The translations under genes were made by a program, and so were the position numbers. Positions 8,253-24,715 of a stretch of 24,715 bases of DNA are shown one piece after another (within the stretch, counting starts at the first letter, position 1; every line of letters begins with the position of its first letter). The notes below the pieces were generated by a model, which ran no database searches, had not been told where the DNA came from, and saw nothing but the letters and a program-made list of their open reading frames with translations. The stretch is from positions 1 to 24,715 of the IMG/VR virus record IMGVR_UViG_3300021478_000106. One strand, 5' to 3'. The DNA is from a virus.

Positions 8253-8308
8253 TATTTGTAAATATCTTATTCATAAAGTATGATAATCCTATTCACGGAG
8301 GAATCAAA

Positions 8309-8479
8309 ATGATAGACAATCGAAAAGTTAAGGACAATCACCAAGAGGGTATAGCCAGAAAAAAACAAAGGCCTGGTGAAATGGGGCGCATGGGCGAGCC
8401 TGGAAAGATGTCTGGTAAGCCAAAGGAAAAGGCTAATTGGAAACGCGAAGGCGGATCAATGACCCCTCGCAAAGCATAA
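8309..8479 (+). CDS. 56-residue disordered Lys/Gly-rich protein
   Basis: The ATG at 8309 is chosen because GGAGG lies six bases upstream. An in-frame ATG at 8249 overlapping the previous stop lacks proper spacing. The peptide begins MIDNRKVKDNHQEGIARKKQ and contains GEMGRMGEPGKMSGKP, a Gly/Met/Lys repeat-like stretch. It is very basic, with no hydrophobic core. It lies immediately before the virion protein gene and could be a minor capsid or DNA-binding peptide. Confidence 0.65.
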   Translation: MIDNRKVKDNHQEGIARKKQRPGEMGRMGEPGKMSGKPKEKANWKREGGSMTPRKA

Positions 8480-8522
8480 AATCTATTTAATATTATCAAT
8501 TTTGATAAAAGGATTTATCATT

Positions 8523-9332
8523 ATGTCTATTCTTCAAATACCTACACCTCTTCCTTCTCAAGTAGGCATTCTTCCTCAAATAAAGAGAATGATTACTACC
8601 GATAATTTAGCGACAGTTACAGCGGCTGGATATCTTAATTCGGTTGATTTGCAAAGCTATCCTATTAATTCATCGGATGTATTGGATGTATTATATTCCT
8701 ACAATCAACAAACCAATTCAGGAACATTTGGTATTTTCACCGTAAGTATATCTAATGGTGTAATTACACTTGTTCAATGGGCTAATCCAGGCGATGTATT
8801 ATTGCCTGTGGTAAGTGGTGATTTTGCTACATTTAACGGAATAACCGGTCAAATTAAAGATGCTGGATTTTTACCATCGGATGCTACAAAAACAAATGTA
8901 GTTATGGCAAGTGGCGCAATTACATTGAATCATGTAGCGCAATTTGCTGATACAGCCGGAACTATTAAAGATGGCGGTGTACTAGGAACTGCCTCTGCAA
9001 AGGCTGCATCTGATAATACAAAGGCATCTTTAGCTTCTGTAAGTGGAGCAACTGTCTTAGGCAATTTAGCAAAATTTGCTGATACCGCTGGAACAGTTAT
9101 CGATCAAGGCGTTGCGTTTAAATCCGTAGCACAAGCTGCTGTTGCGGGTGGTGCGGCTGCACAAACTGTGACAGATGCATTTTGTACGACTGGAAGTATG
9201 GTGACAGCTAGTTGGAATGATACGACTAATGCCGTATCTATACAAAAAGTTGCTGCCGGAAATGGAAGTTTTGTTGTTACTTCCAGCGGTGATCCAGGTG
9301 CAAGCCATTTAAATTATATTATTACGAAATAG
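8523..9332 (+). CDS. Repeat-bearing virion protein (head fibre/decoration or tail-fibre-like)
   Basis: 269 residues from the ATG at 8523, which has AAAAGG ten bases upstream; an in-frame TTG at 8502 is rejected. The N-terminus (MSILQIPTPLPSQVG) leads to a beta-rich domain. About residues 100-195 hold three imperfect copies of a short unit: TFNGITGQIKDAG, QFADTAGTIKDGG and KFADTAGTVIDQG. The C-terminus resembles the closing strands of fibre or decoration proteins. I recall this 'FAD-AGTIKD' repeat from phage surface proteins in other genomes. A virion surface role is likely; whether head or tail cannot be told. Confidence 0.72.
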   Translation: MSILQIPTPLPSQVGILPQIKRMITTDNLATVTAAGYLNSVDLQSYPINSSDVLDVLYSYNQQTNSGTFGIFTVSISNGVITLVQWANPGDVLLPVVSGDFATFNGITGQIKDAGFLPSDATKTNVVMASGAITLNHVAQFADTAGTIKDGGVLGTASAKAASDNTKASLASVSGATVLGNLAKFADTAGTVIDQGVAFKSVAQAAVAGGAAAQTVTDAFCTTGSMVTASWNDTTNAVSIQKVAAGNGSFVVTSSGDPGASHLNYIITK

Positions 9333-9524: not shown

Positions 9525-9830
9525 ATGCAAATTAAGTTAGCCGAAGCATTGTTAAGACGCAAGGAATTACAGCAAAAATTACAAGTTTTAACCCAATTTA
9601 AACAAAATCAAATTGTTTATGAAATTCGTGGTCAACGCTTAAAAATAAGCGATAGTTTCGATGAATTTACAGGTACATTACCAAAATTAGAATTAAATCA
9701 AGTTACGGCAGAATACGATCATTGCGCGCGTCAATTACGTTTAATTGATGGAGCGATTCAACATATTAATTGGACTGCTGAAGTATCCATAGATAGTATG
9801 GTGATGGAAGATTTTAAAGATAGAAAATAG
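9525..9830 (+). CDS. Small helical protein, DIP1984/DUF6847-like
   Basis: 101 residues from the ATG at 9525, with AAGGAT as ribosome site. It begins MQIKLAEALLRRKELQQKLQ, and the second half has YDHCARQLRLIDGAIQHINW. The layout of a KLAEAL-R-LQ-L helix followed later by a helix with 'L..ID-AIQ-IN' resembles the DIP1984 (septicolysin-named) family of two-helix proteins, whose biochemical role is unclear. The link is by pattern only. An upstream extension to 9411 is rejected because it runs over the leftward gene and lacks a ribosome site. Confidence 0.6.
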   Translation: MQIKLAEALLRRKELQQKLQVLTQFKQNQIVYEIRGQRLKISDSFDEFTGTLPKLELNQVTAEYDHCARQLRLIDGAIQHINWTAEVSIDSMVMEDFKDRK

Positions 9831-9932: not shown

Positions 9933-10008
9933 AATCGTGTAGCTCAATTGGTAGAGCATCAGTTATTGATACTGAGTGTCATCGGTTCGAGTCCGATCAC
10001 AATTGCCA
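9933..10008 (+). tRNA. tRNA-Gln (anticodon UUG) with encoded CCA
   Basis: A full cloverleaf fits. Acceptor AATCGTG (9933-9939) pairs with CACAATT (9998-10004) except for C4-A69. The D arm is GCTC AATTGGTA GAGC. The anticodon stem TCAGT/ACTGA has loop TATTGAT (9964-9970), giving anticodon UUG. A 5-base variable loop and T arm ATCGG TTCGAGT CCGAT follow, then discriminator G and CCA. Standard tRNA-Gln(UUG) has loop TTTTGAT; here universal U33 is A. It would decode CAA, which is abundant in the Gln-rich structural genes of this window. Structure is certain; activity is not, because of A33 and the acceptor mismatch. Confidence 0.88.
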
Positions 10009-10126: not shown

Positions 10127-10155
10127 GACTGAATTAGTCTTTTAGTTTTTTCTTT
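10127..10155 (+). terminator. Weak rightward terminator candidate after tRNA
   Basis: GACT (10127-10130), loop GAATT and AGTC (10136-10139) form a short stem followed by a T-rich tract (TTTTAGTTTTTTCTTTC). It would end the tRNA transcript and reduce collision with the leftward cassette, whose last stop codon lies in it. The stem is only 4 bp, so strength is doubtful. Confidence 0.3.
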
Positions 10156-10358
10156 CTCTTTGGTTTTTTATTTAGCCTATACACAATTGCGCAAATGATA
10201 CTAACAAATCCGTAGACCATCATTGTCACAATAAATACAATAGCTATTAAGGGTAATTTATCAGTTGATATTACCCATGGTAAAACTAGTCCTGATAGGA
10301 TTAAAAATAAATTTACTCCTACCAGTCCTATAAAACATAATTTCATTGTGTCGCTCAT
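10134..10358 (-). CDS. Two-pass small membrane protein
   Basis: 74 residues with two clear hydrophobic helices (about 8-30 and 36-61) joined by a short loop, then a strongly basic tail (RLNKKPKRKKK). By the positive-inside rule the tail is cytoplasmic, giving an N-in/C-in hairpin. It overlaps the SPFH gene stop by one base (TAATG), so it is made with that protein and is a likely partner. The topology also fits class II holins, but gene context favours a membrane partner of the SPFH protein. Confidence 0.75.
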   Translation of the reverse strand: MSDTMKLCFIGLVGVNLFLILSGLVLPWVISTDKLPLIAIVFIVTMMVYGFVSIICAIVYRLNKKPKRKKKLKD

Positions 10359-11194
10359 TACTTACCTTGTACATTAACAAAAGGAATTGCATTACTGCCT
10401 GTAAATTTTGGAAGTTCGCCATTCCATTTTAGTATAGCTTGATATTGAACGAACTCAGGCGTCAAGCTTTCAGCAAGAATTTTATTTGCTTGTGCTTGTG
10501 ATTGAGCGTTAATAAGAACTTGTTGTCCGTGTGCTTGTGCTTCAACAATCGTTTTCTGTGCTTCAGCTCTAGCGGTAGCAACTTCATTTTCAACTTTCAT
10601 GGCATTTTGTGAAGCTTGGATTTTTGCGTTGATGGAATTAACAACTGAAGAAGGTAGATCAAAGGAACCAACAAGATATATCTTTTCAACTTCAATGCCA
10701 GTATTTGAAGCTTCAACTTTAACAATTTTATTAACATGTTCAATAAAAGATTCTTTTTGTGCACCATATATTTGTTCCACGGTCATGGTGCTTGCTACTT
10801 CATTCATAGCATCACGTACCATGTTATGTAAGAAAGTATTTGTTATTTCATCTATTCCAAGTCGGTACTTTTGAAATACTTTAACAACGTTGTCAGGCTG
10901 AATAGAGTAGGTGATTCCTGCCTCAGTTTTAATTGAGAGCCCTTCACTAGTTTGCATGGTAATACTTTGTTCGTCTTTCCATGAGTAGTTTTGCAAGAAG
11001 GTTGGAAACAAGTATAGTTCACTGTTCCATCCAGTATAGTAACGACCAACTCCAACGGATTGTTCTGCGACACCTTTATCACTCCCATATAGATTTACTA
11101 TAACACCGCGATAACCAGCGGGTACTTTGCTGCATGATGTTACATTCAAGCATATAGCTGTTAAAGCAAATCCTGTTACTAATATTTTCTTCAT
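10358..11194 (-). CDS. SPFH/prohibitin (band 7)-like lipoprotein
   Basis: 278 residues. The N-terminus MKKILVTGFALTAICLNVTS-C is a lipoprotein signal with lipobox V18-T19-S20-C21. Ser at +2 predicts outer-membrane sorting in Gram-negative hosts. Residues about 25-200 match the SPFH fold: VPAGYRGVIVNLYG, then VGVGRYYTGWN, then the long VRDAMNEVASTMTVEQIYG and IEVEKIYLVG segments. Residues about 205-245 form the Ala/Glu/Gln-rich helix typical of prohibitins and HflC/HflK (ENEVATARAEAQKTIVEAQA). SPFH proteins form ring- or cage-like membrane assemblies and can modulate FtsH-type proteases. The gene overlaps both neighbours, giving one leftward operon. A host-membrane or superinfection role is inferred. 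Confidence 0.88.
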   Translation of the reverse strand: MKKILVTGFALTAICLNVTSCSKVPAGYRGVIVNLYGSDKGVAEQSVGVGRYYTGWNSELYLFPTFLQNYSWKDEQSITMQTSEGLSIKTEAGITYSIQPDNVVKVFQKYRLGIDEITNTFLHNMVRDAMNEVASTMTVEQIYGAQKESFIEHVNKIVKVEASNTGIEVEKIYLVGSFDLPSSVVNSINAKIQASQNAMKVENEVATARAEAQKTIVEAQAHGQQVLINAQSQAQANKILAESLTPEFVQYQAILKWNGELPKFTGSNAIPFVNVQGK

Positions 11195-11391
11195 TCAGAT
11201 TCCTTCATATTATTTTTAAACCATTCGTCTGTTTTTAACAAATCATAGTAAACACGCGCTGATCCTTGAATTTTAATAAACCGAGGTTCTTGATGATGAT
11301 GTTGGCGTGCTTTGAACCACGAAACTGATAAACCATATCGTCTCGATGCTTCTTTTCTTGTTATGTAATCCTTTCCTAGAATATTAGGCAT
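11191..11391 (-). CDS. AlpA/excisionase-like winged helix DNA-binding protein
   Basis: 66 residues. Residues 9-45 read YITRKEASRRYGLSVSWFKA, then RFIKI and ARVYYDLLKTDEWF. This is the pattern of excisionase/AlpA-type helix-turn-helix proteins, with 'T-KEA' helix, turn, recognition helix and a wing carrying a Tyr/Arg pair before the 'D-WF' end. It is the first gene of the leftward cassette and overlaps the SPFH gene by ATGA, so it probably autoregulates. A palindrome covers its ribosome site (11393-11411). Confidence 0.8.
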   Translation of the reverse strand: MPNILGKDYITRKEASRRYGLSVSWFKARQHHHQEPRFIKIQGSARVYYDLLKTDEWFKNNMKESE

Positions 11392-11411: not shown

Positions 11412-11526
11412 GGTTATAAAAGTTTCATTGAGTTACAACAGGCTAACGAAGTCTATTGTAGTTTGCAATAGGTTACAGCGGGCGATAAATTGGAAACGTG
11501 GAGATTTACATGATGTAACGAACCAC
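11412..11526. other. Non-coding spacer with direct repeat and hairpin
   Basis: No gene seen. GTTACAACAGGC (11432-11443) and GTTACAGCGGGC (11472-11483) match at 10 of 12 bases and start 40 bp apart. Between them CTATTG (11453-11458) and CAATAG (11466-11471) form a 6-bp stem. Weak rightward promoter-like pairs occur (TTGCAA at 11463-11468, TAAATT at 11486-11491, 17-bp spacing), but none is strong. This is probably the control region between the leftward cassette and the rightward scaffold/coat operon. Confidence 0.4.
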
Positions 11527-11656
11527 CGAGACCTGTGCGTTATTCAGGGCATAACCGTCGTGGGGTATATAGCGAGTGATGCGGACACTTAAAAACACGC
11601 ACGAGACCTGTTCGATAGGCAGGGTATAACCGTTGCGGGGTTAATAGCTAAGGATA
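11527..11656 (+). repeat. Imperfect 55-nt tandem element, period 75 nt, candidate structured RNA
   Basis: Two copies (about 11527-11581 and 11602-11656) agree at about 42 of 55 bases by hand count. Both keep CGAGACCTGT, CAGGG-ATAACCGT, GGGGT and TAGC. Each can form CCTG...CAGG and CCG-N3-CGG/TGG stems; a C-to-U change in the second keeps pairing as G-U. Copy 2 also has TAACC...GGTTA. There is no open reading frame through both. The second copy ends just before the ribosome site of the scaffold gene. Confidence 0.55.
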
Positions 11657-11660
11657 GCAA

Positions 11661-12425
11661 ATGGAAACGGCTAATGGACAAGCCCAAGGTCAAGATACGT
11701 CTTTGACTGGTTTAACTTCGTCAGCGCCACCGGCGCAATCACAAACTGCGCCTGTACAATCGTCTGATGAAAGGGTTTTTAGGCAATCAGAAGTAAATGA
11801 AATCGTCAAGAAAGCGAAATATGGGGCTGTTGAGGACTACAAACGCGTAGCCACTGAACAACCCGACTATGCATCGAGAAAGTATGGTGAAAGTGGTATA
11901 TCCCCACAACAACATACCCAACCGCAAAGCATGGCGCCGGATGAGGGAACTTATCGAAAGATTGCTGCTCAAGAGGCACAACGCTTACGTGATGAATGGG
12001 TGCAGGAAGCACGTACCAAAGCCGAAGCGGACAGTGCGCGAGGGATCGTGCAGACCTTTTGGAACAAACTCGCTCCAGGACGGGAAAAGTATCAGGATTT
12101 TGACAAGGTAACGAGCGACATTGAATATGCTCAGTTTCCTAATGTGGTACAGCTACTCGCGCAGCATGCAGACAACGCGCATGACATATTGTACGCATTT
12201 GGGAATGATCGTCTGAAGATGTCTCAACTCGAATATCTTGCCTCAAAGTCACCAAGGGATGCGATTGTGCAGGTGCAGAGGTTATCTCAATCAATAAAAG
12301 ATAATGAAGCTACTAGCAAAATCAGAGTTCCAAATGAACCGTTGTCAAAACTGCGTCCTTCCAACCTTGGTACGGACAACGGTGTTATGACGGTAAAGGA
12401 CTATCGCGCAAGATACAGAGTCTAA
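11661..12425 (+). CDS. Scaffolding protein (P22 gp8 analogue)
   Basis: 254 residues, Gln/Ala/Ser-rich and partly disordered at the N-terminus (METANGQAQGQDTSLTGLTS), helical in the middle (EAQRLRDEWVQEARTKAEAD), with a compact C-terminus containing PLSKLRPSNLGTDNG and DYRARYRV. The position directly before coat, the composition and the basic C-terminal end are those of podoviral scaffold proteins, which bind coat through a short basic C-terminal helix-turn-helix. AAGGA is five bases upstream. Sequence evidence for the family is moderate; context is strong. Confidence 0.8.
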   Translation: METANGQAQGQDTSLTGLTSSAPPAQSQTAPVQSSDERVFRQSEVNEIVKKAKYGAVEDYKRVATEQPDYASRKYGESGISPQQHTQPQSMAPDEGTYRKIAAQEAQRLRDEWVQEARTKAEADSARGIVQTFWNKLAPGREKYQDFDKVTSDIEYAQFPNVVQLLAQHADNAHDILYAFGNDRLKMSQLEYLASKSPRDAIVQVQRLSQSIKDNEATSKIRVPNEPLSKLRPSNLGTDNGVMTVKDYRARYRV

Positions 12426-24163: not shown

Positions 24164-24715
24164 TTAAACAATTATATGTTTCCAATTTTGATTATTTTTT
24201 ATGTATAAAATTTGTCTTTTCCCTATATTAAACATTTTTGCTAAATCAGATACTTTTTCTGTTTTTAAAAGATTTTTTATCTTTGTTACATCTTCTTCTG
24301 TCAATTTAGCTTTAGGAGAACTTGAACCTTTGACTGGATTTTTTCTTCCTTTTTTAATCATATCTTTAACATTATCATGATTAGTTCCAAGGAATAAATG
24401 ATCGGGATTAACGCAATTTCTTATGTCACATTTATGACAAACAAACATATTTTTTGGGATTTCGCCATAATTTAATTGCCAAGAATATCTGTGAGCAAGA
24501 ATAATTTTCCCATTAACATTTAATGCTCCGTATCCTTTTTCTCCAATGGCTTTTATCCATAACCAACACCCATTTATTTTTTGTTCTTTTTCTATTGAGT
24601 TAAAAAATCTTTCTTCTTTTTTCCCATATCTACATTCCCAAGAACAATATTTTCCAAAACCTTTTTTTATAAGATATGGTTTAACTTTAAATTCATATTT
24701 ACCACTCTTTGTGTG
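24164..24715 (-). CDS. HNH endonuclease with C-terminal HTH, partial
   Basis: A leftward frame is open from the window edge to the stop at 24164: 183 residues with the start outside. An N-terminal cysteine pair lies in YCSWECRYGKKEE. The HNH core reads GCWLWIKAIGEKGYGALNVN, AHRYSWQLNYGEIPKN and CHKCDIRNCVNPDHLFLGT: the HR-Y-L-GEIP helix, the CDxxxCVNPDHL metal site and the following DNVKDM-KKGR motif. A C-terminal helix-turn-helix (KLTEEDVTKIKNLLKTEKVS, LAKMFNIG) may give site preference. This is a free-standing homing-type nuclease next to the fibre gene; no intron boundaries are visible. The internal ATG at 24448 would remove part of the HNH fold and is not the real start. Confidence 0.93.
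   Translation of the reverse strand, partial: HTKSGKYEFKVKPYLIKKGFGKYCSWECRYGKKEERFFNSIEKEQKINGCWLWIKAIGEKGYGALNVNGKIILAHRYSWQLNYGEIPKNMFVCHKCDIRNCVNPDHLFLGTNHDNVKDMIKKGRKNPVKGSSSPKAKLTEEDVTKIKNLLKTEKVSDLAKMFNIGKRQILYIKNNQNWKHIIV

Follow-up and report, generated by a model that had tools for sequence, protein, structure and literature searches.

An SPFH lipoprotein and two-helix membrane protein gene pair lodged behind a resident HTH gene in a phage head-gene region

Introduction

Hundreds of phage genomes carry an SPFH gene, under varying annotations ('lipoprotein', 'prohibitin', 'transposase', 'serine protease'). Our literature search found such annotation but no paper testing the function of a phage SPFH protein. 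One of these genes lies in the virus record IMGVR_UViG_3300021478_000106, as the middle one of three overlapping genes that run against the late genes. A preliminary description, made from the DNA letters, took the three for one cassette, in which an excisionase-like HTH protein would regulate a prohibitin-like SPFH lipoprotein and a small two-pass membrane protein. This raises the question of whether the three genes form a unit, and what the lipoprotein and its neighbor might do for the phage.

The whole stretch of DNA analysed here (24,715 nucleotides, the 24.7-kb virus record), called the window, is apparently a fragment of its phage and has a G+C content of 35.5%. From IMG/VR we took sequences related to the SPFH, scaffold and coat proteins, and mapped all window proteins onto them. 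Individual relatives are given by their L numbers.

Results

Layout of the locus

The window follows a P22-like plan, with terminase, portal, scaffold, coat, gp4-like and gp10-like genes, several of these names being our own reading of the sequence and gene order. Three leftward ORFs, encoding the HTH protein, the SPFH protein and a small membrane protein (TM2), lie between tRNA-Gln and the scaffold gene on the strand opposite to the late genes, exactly where the preliminary description had put them. The HTH and SPFH genes overlap by 4 nt, and the SPFH and TM2 genes by 1 nt. Because homologues exist for all three, these ORFs are not due to chance. The features of the locus are as follows.

9933-10008: tRNA-Gln.
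10134..10358, minus strand: TM2, gene of a two-helix membrane protein of 74 aa (adjacency to SPFH in IMG/VR and in named phages; helical hairpin model).
10251..10280, minus strand: TM2 loop motif from P27 to P36 (PWVISTDKLP; residue conservation in homologues).
10358..11194, minus strand: gene of the SPFH/Band 7 lipoprotein, 278 aa (Band_7; PHROG 200; AF2 model and Foldseek).
10466..10651, minus strand: long C-terminal helix of SPFH, residues 182-243 (secondary structure of the AF2 model).
11132..11194, minus strand: SPFH signal peptide and lipobox cysteine C21 (sequence; conservation in homologues).
11140..11183, minus strand: mosaic junction between the HTH gene and the SPFH/TM2 module (limits of blastn homology).
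11191..11391, minus strand: gene of the HTH_17-type DNA-binding protein, 66 aa (ORF; homologues in the same position in relatives; HTH_17 in homologues).
11527..11655, plus strand: two tandem putative pseudoknot RNA units of the scaffold leader, outside the cassette (direct repeat; covariation; no Rfam match).
11661-12425: scaffold gene (phrog_8865, E 1e-5).

Left of the tRNA, a gene at 9525-9830 matched DUF6847 (E 4e-8). Its only homologue among the relatives is in L045 (63%), so variability extends to this part of the window as well. An HNH homing-endonuclease-like gene (24164-24448, minus strand; phrog_59, E 7.5e-21) follows a tail gene at the record's right end.

The HTH gene and its cargo

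The HTH protein of the window gave a weak match to phrog_66, 'excisionase and transcriptional regulator' (E 8.5e-5), and no match in Pfam. Its family is HTH_17, which was found in 22 of 28 aligned homologues, and DUF1233 was matched weakly in 10 of the 28. The phrog_66 and HTH_17 matches identify an excisionase/AlpA-type HTH fold, so the earlier assignment holds as far as the type of HTH is concerned. Relatives of the HTH protein came from tblastn around the coat relatives; querying viral contigs with the window's HTH sequence alone had given none.

The soil-phage lineage usually keeps this small HTH gene beside its capsid genes. The coat/scaffold relatives gave 43 distinct copies of an HTH homologue that points leftward and lies immediately before the scaffold gene; some relatives lack it. 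None of the 43 copies has an SPFH gene beside it. About half of the HTH-bearing relatives have no leftward gene behind the HTH gene, and the remainder carry differing cargo: endonuclease VII (L101, L120), YopX (L045), an HNH-type protein (L068), a sigma70_r4-like protein (L038, a weak match) and several unknown proteins. Like SPFH in the window, several of these alternative cargo genes have a 4-nt overlap with the HTH stop codon. Our analysis showed that the HTH gene heads an accessory slot with exchanged cargo.

Some relatives (L074, L087, L093, L100, L110, L111, and L116) have an extra leftward gene of about 160-190 aa before the HTH gene, whose product contains ...SxWRxxxIGxxFxQxP...; the L111 copy had no PHROG match. 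Upstream of the HTH gene in the window there is a 21-nt imperfect direct repeat (71%; 11423-11443 and 11463-11483, 40 nt apart), a possible operator of the HTH protein. A promoter and terminator scan revealed no clear leftward transcript, the signals being near the level of shuffled sequences.

Mosaic junction

By blastn, the DNA of L006 aligned to 10225-11139 of the window (76%), that is, to TM2 and SPFH. The DNA of L038, a relative of the lineage itself, aligned over 11183-11370 (68%, HTH), over 8274-9331 (73%) and from 11527 onward (81%), and that of L078 was 87% identical over 11187-11225. The source of homology therefore switches at 11140-11183, inside the SPFH signal peptide and beside the HTH stop codon. 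The switch is direct evidence for a mosaic cassette made of two unrelated pieces, a resident HTH gene and an imported SPFH/TM2 module. The nearest SPFH relatives (63-88% identical) occur in other phages with varied neighbors, and an HTH gene of the window type adjoins SPFH in none of the 36 IMG/VR loci of SPFH relatives. Co-occurrence of the three genes elsewhere was a test proposed in the preliminary description; the trio fails it, but SPFH and TM2 pass it strongly. What looked like a three-gene cassette is thus a clear example of a conserved regulator gene behind which cargo is exchanged.

The SPFH protein

Assignment of the SPFH protein was unambiguous, with matches to Pfam Band_7 (E 4e-28) and, over its full length (residues 1-276), to PHROG 200 'lipoprotein' (E 1e-73). 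The lipobox cysteine C21 is nearly invariant among 30 SPFH homologues, a few of which have an uncleaved hydrophobic anchor instead. Structure models of SPFH and TM2 were built from alignments of the window and IMG/VR sequences. The AF2 model of SPFH was of moderate confidence (pLDDT 77, pTM 0.54), and its closest structures upon Foldseek search were HflK/C, prohibitin, erlin, stomatin and QmcA-YbbJ (8z5g). HflKC-FtsH structures (7wi3, 9cz2) were among the best matches, but all of these proteins matched equally well, at 14-19% identity. The prohibitin-like lipoprotein of the preliminary description is thereby confirmed by domain, family, lipobox and an HflK/C-prohibitin-type fold. The long helix of residues 182-243 is expected to be an oligomerisation coiled coil.

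In KT870145.1, LN610578.1, MN166823.1, and FO818745.1 the SPFH gene is named 'transposase', 'transposase fusion protein' or 'serine protease', names to which the Band 7 domain gives no support. An SPFH-type gene of DLP5 has been annotated as a moron (PMC5834331). Our own idea that the SPFH protein is plp of P1 was rejected, since P1 plp is a protein of 125 aa and not SPFH. In reference P1, plp, upl and tciABC are located before ban and were non-essential by CRISPRi (PMC10695390). In a P1-like record the SPFH/TM2 pair is located before a dnaB-type gene, and its TM2 gene carries no annotation.

TM2 and the gene pair

TM2 alone had no convincing family match in Pfam or PHROG, although some of its homologues belong to PHROG 1130 'membrane protein'. 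It was modelled as a helical hairpin with helices at residues 3-31 and 37-63, in agreement with the small two-pass membrane protein described before, and the conserved motif lies in the loop. The loop motif is P-x-x-(I/V)-S with an invariant proline: P27 is invariant in 31 homologues, and G23, I30 and P36 are nearly invariant in 24. Identity to the window copy is only about 20-44% within the IMG/VR group, but G-x-x-x-P-x-x-I-S is retained. TM2 was also considered as an NfeD protein, and this was rejected: it has two helices only, no NfeD match and no NfeD/OB domain.

A two-helix ORF, mostly of 60-90 aa, lies directly downstream of SPFH in 35 of the 36 IMG/VR loci (29 identified by ORF calling and 6 from reading frames), usually overlapping or touching it; L016 is the sole locus without TM2. 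As a control, we looked at 195 other genes of 150 codons or more on the same contigs, and a small two-helix ORF followed just 4 of them (2%).

Among named phages, a TM2 with the motif, as scored by eye, adjoins SPFH in 15 of 19 sampled regions, and there it lies upstream of SPFH. These are PAN70, DSS3P8, Paxi, CKB-S1, ProddE, Maja, the P1-like phage, KB57, 4MG, PHB09, Spe5P4, Jura, Kae01, OLIVR5, and ZRK32. Meara has a weak version of TM2 beside SPFH, and TM2 is absent beside SPFH in U47, vEam_PM_27 and a Kayvirus. The pair of Jura has been annotated as homologous to N4 gp19-gp20. In KB57 and 4MG (Vequintavirinae; L139, L140) a gene for a 54-aa protein, perhaps of the ribbon-helix-helix type, lies at 732-896 between TM2 and SPFH. 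Next to the pair, other phages have DNA-metabolism genes, e.g. those of a polymerase or a helicase.

Our analysis showed that SPFH and TM2 form a mobile two-gene module that stays together across many unrelated phages and, as far as we searched, has had no name. Since both gene orders occur, the two proteins are probably kept together by function and not by simple linkage.

Integrase and phage lifestyle

Few relatives had a tyrosine integrase (1 of 23 long coat relatives, 2 of 19 long SPFH relatives), though many of these records may be fragments, and none was found in the window, itself a fragment of its phage. When the coat was searched for in 84,980 species genomes of bacteria and archaea (GTDB), only four contigs matched, all in MAGs; they look like co-binned phage contigs. 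The SPFH/TM2 pair is common in N4-like phages and Vequintavirinae, and these are generally regarded as virulent. The rarity of integrase and the finding of the coat on only four MAG contigs disfavor both an excisionase role and a general control of lysis and lysogeny. The HTH protein is therefore unlikely to be an excisionase, integrase being nearly absent from the relatives. The proposed lysis/lysogeny control through FtsH is likewise weakened.

A candidate leader RNA of the scaffold gene

Two 54-nt direct repeats (11527-11580 and 11602-11655) lie between the HTH and scaffold genes. Nearly all relatives have the 54-nt unit before their scaffold gene, and upon pattern search 43 of 58 loci with any unit had two. 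The structure drawn from 68 aligned units consists of a 4-bp hairpin and, after it, an H-type pseudoknot; a 2-bp stem of the pseudoknot pairs columns 40-41 with 48-49, and the loop of this stem pairs over 3 bp (columns 44-46 with 61-63). Of the cells in these 68 units 95.1% can pair, against 73.9% in shuffles and at most 56% in slid versions, 156 cells are changed on both sides, and the covariation score is 0.681, against 0.280 in shuffles (0 of 500 as high); the structure was drawn from the same sequences and part of the units were found with a core-based pattern, so that these controls lean in its favor. The C-G to G-C swaps of stem 2 and the stem 3 series AGC/GCT, GAT/ATC, GAC/GTC and GGC/GCC are nevertheless hard to explain otherwise.

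The only Rfam match in the window, at E up to 1, was the tRNA. Exact-pattern scans of IMG/VR gave matches only at loci with this scaffold and coat, and our literature search turned up no work on a leader RNA of a scaffold gene. In the second unit, the 3' strand directly adjoins the Shine-Dalgarno-like AAGGA of the scaffold gene, which makes translational control of this gene the natural hypothesis and the leader RNA a candidate control element. The scaffold protein of P22 autoregulates. This leader RNA is probably the most novel feature of the window.

Discussion

We consider, with a probability of about 0.6, that the locus is a regulator-headed accessory slot, in which an imported membrane-cage module sits behind a resident regulator and serves a non-essential fitness function. 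The phage-borne accessory membrane cassette that had been suggested is, in this general sense, supported by the SPFH type, the lipid anchor and the two-pass partner. The overlapping stop and start codons suggest that the cargo would be expressed from the leftward HTH transcript and so come under whatever control acts on the HTH gene. With its lipid anchor, the SPFH protein would sit at the inner membrane facing the periplasm. Rings and domes are known assemblies of SPFH proteins, that of QmcA having 26 copies (PMC12624060), and the lipidated phage protein may oligomerise there into a ring or dome like that of HflK/C. As the positive-inside rule would put the lysine-rich tail of TM2 in the cytoplasm, its proline loop would face the SPFH side, and TM2 might lie in or under the ring as a transmembrane partner, in a role like that of the NfeD protein YbbJ for QmcA. 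During infection such a cage could change the turnover of inner-membrane proteins by fencing them off or shielding them; this would be neither a structural nor a lysogeny function. Inner-membrane shielding or fencing is accordingly our first choice for what the cage may do, followed by phage exclusion and then by FtsH control. Whether the lipoprotein and TM2 make up a phage-wide minimal SPFH-partner cage for control of the infected host's inner membrane, in which the TM2 proline loop is the conserved contact, is a tentative proposal, to which we give somewhat less than even odds.

Superinfection exclusion, by an inner-membrane SPFH/TM2 complex that blocks the DNA entry or establishment of later phages, would suit the predicted membrane location of both proteins and the accessory, exchangeable position of a pair that has spread among phages by exchange. 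In other systems, small membrane proteins and lipoproteins of phages act in this way. Cor is a phage lipoprotein known to exclude phages (reviewed in PMC4936722). However, no known exclusion protein proved related in sequence, and phages usually held to be virulent, in which the pair occurs, have less need of exclusion than lysogens, so this explanation is unlikely. A decoy for FtsH/HflKC is a more doubtful one still. Here the phage SPFH protein would join or compete with host HflK/C and change FtsH proteolysis of phage or host proteins, and its fold, its probable periplasmic side and the HflKC-FtsH structures among its top matches agree with this, as does the modulation of FtsH and lambda CII turnover by HflKC (PMC4936722). 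But the structure search did not single out HflKC, which moreover has no counterpart of TM2, and where carriers lack integrase, control of lysogeny is unlikely.

That the three genes are a co-evolved cassette, with the HTH protein as dedicated regulator of SPFH and TM2, is very improbable. The genes do overlap in the window, and SPFH adjoins an AlpA-type HTH gene in the satellite AH14b (PMC4936722), a case which may mean that HTH-SPFH adjacency arose more than once. Nevertheless, the HTH gene is resident in relatives without SPFH and the pair lives elsewhere without this HTH, and these disjoint distributions (43 copies and 36 loci, respectively), together with a breakpoint at the gene border, largely refute such a partnership and the claim that SPFH has its own regulator here. 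We give the least credence to a role of TM2 in lysis timing, of the holin or antiholin type and modulated by SPFH. TM2 resembles small holins in size and two-helix topology, but no endolysin gene was seen beside it, and the pair adjoins polymerase and helicase genes in other phages. A conserved loop proline is, to our knowledge, not a feature of holins.

The constant TM2 partner provides a concrete two-gene unit for expression, deletion and pull-down in tractable hosts, such as E. coli with its N4-like or P1-like phages.

Compared with known systems, the HTH protein shares its HTH match with the HTH_17/excisionase-type regulators of phrog_66, but its carriers in the window lineage mostly have no integrase and keep it in a fixed position beside the scaffold gene. 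With HflK/HflC the SPFH protein shares the fold and probably the periplasmic side of the inner membrane, at an identity of 14-19%. HflK/HflC, however, are two paired SPFH genes with uncleaved TM anchors, whereas the window has one SPFH gene with a lipid anchor and a TM2 partner, whose product is not known to contact FtsH. QmcA-YbbJ, an SPFH-NfeD pair and a fold match (8z5g), likewise combines SPFH with a small membrane protein from the adjacent gene, but that partner has the NfeD domain that TM2 lacks. The phage SPFH 'lipoprotein' family of PHROG 200, such as gp20 of the N4-like phage Jura, shares the full-length match, the lipobox, the Band 7 domain and the adjacent two-helix gene. Unlike loci of the Jura type, the pair of the window lies in the head-gene region against the late genes, with TM2 downstream of SPFH instead of upstream and a resident HTH gene standing first.
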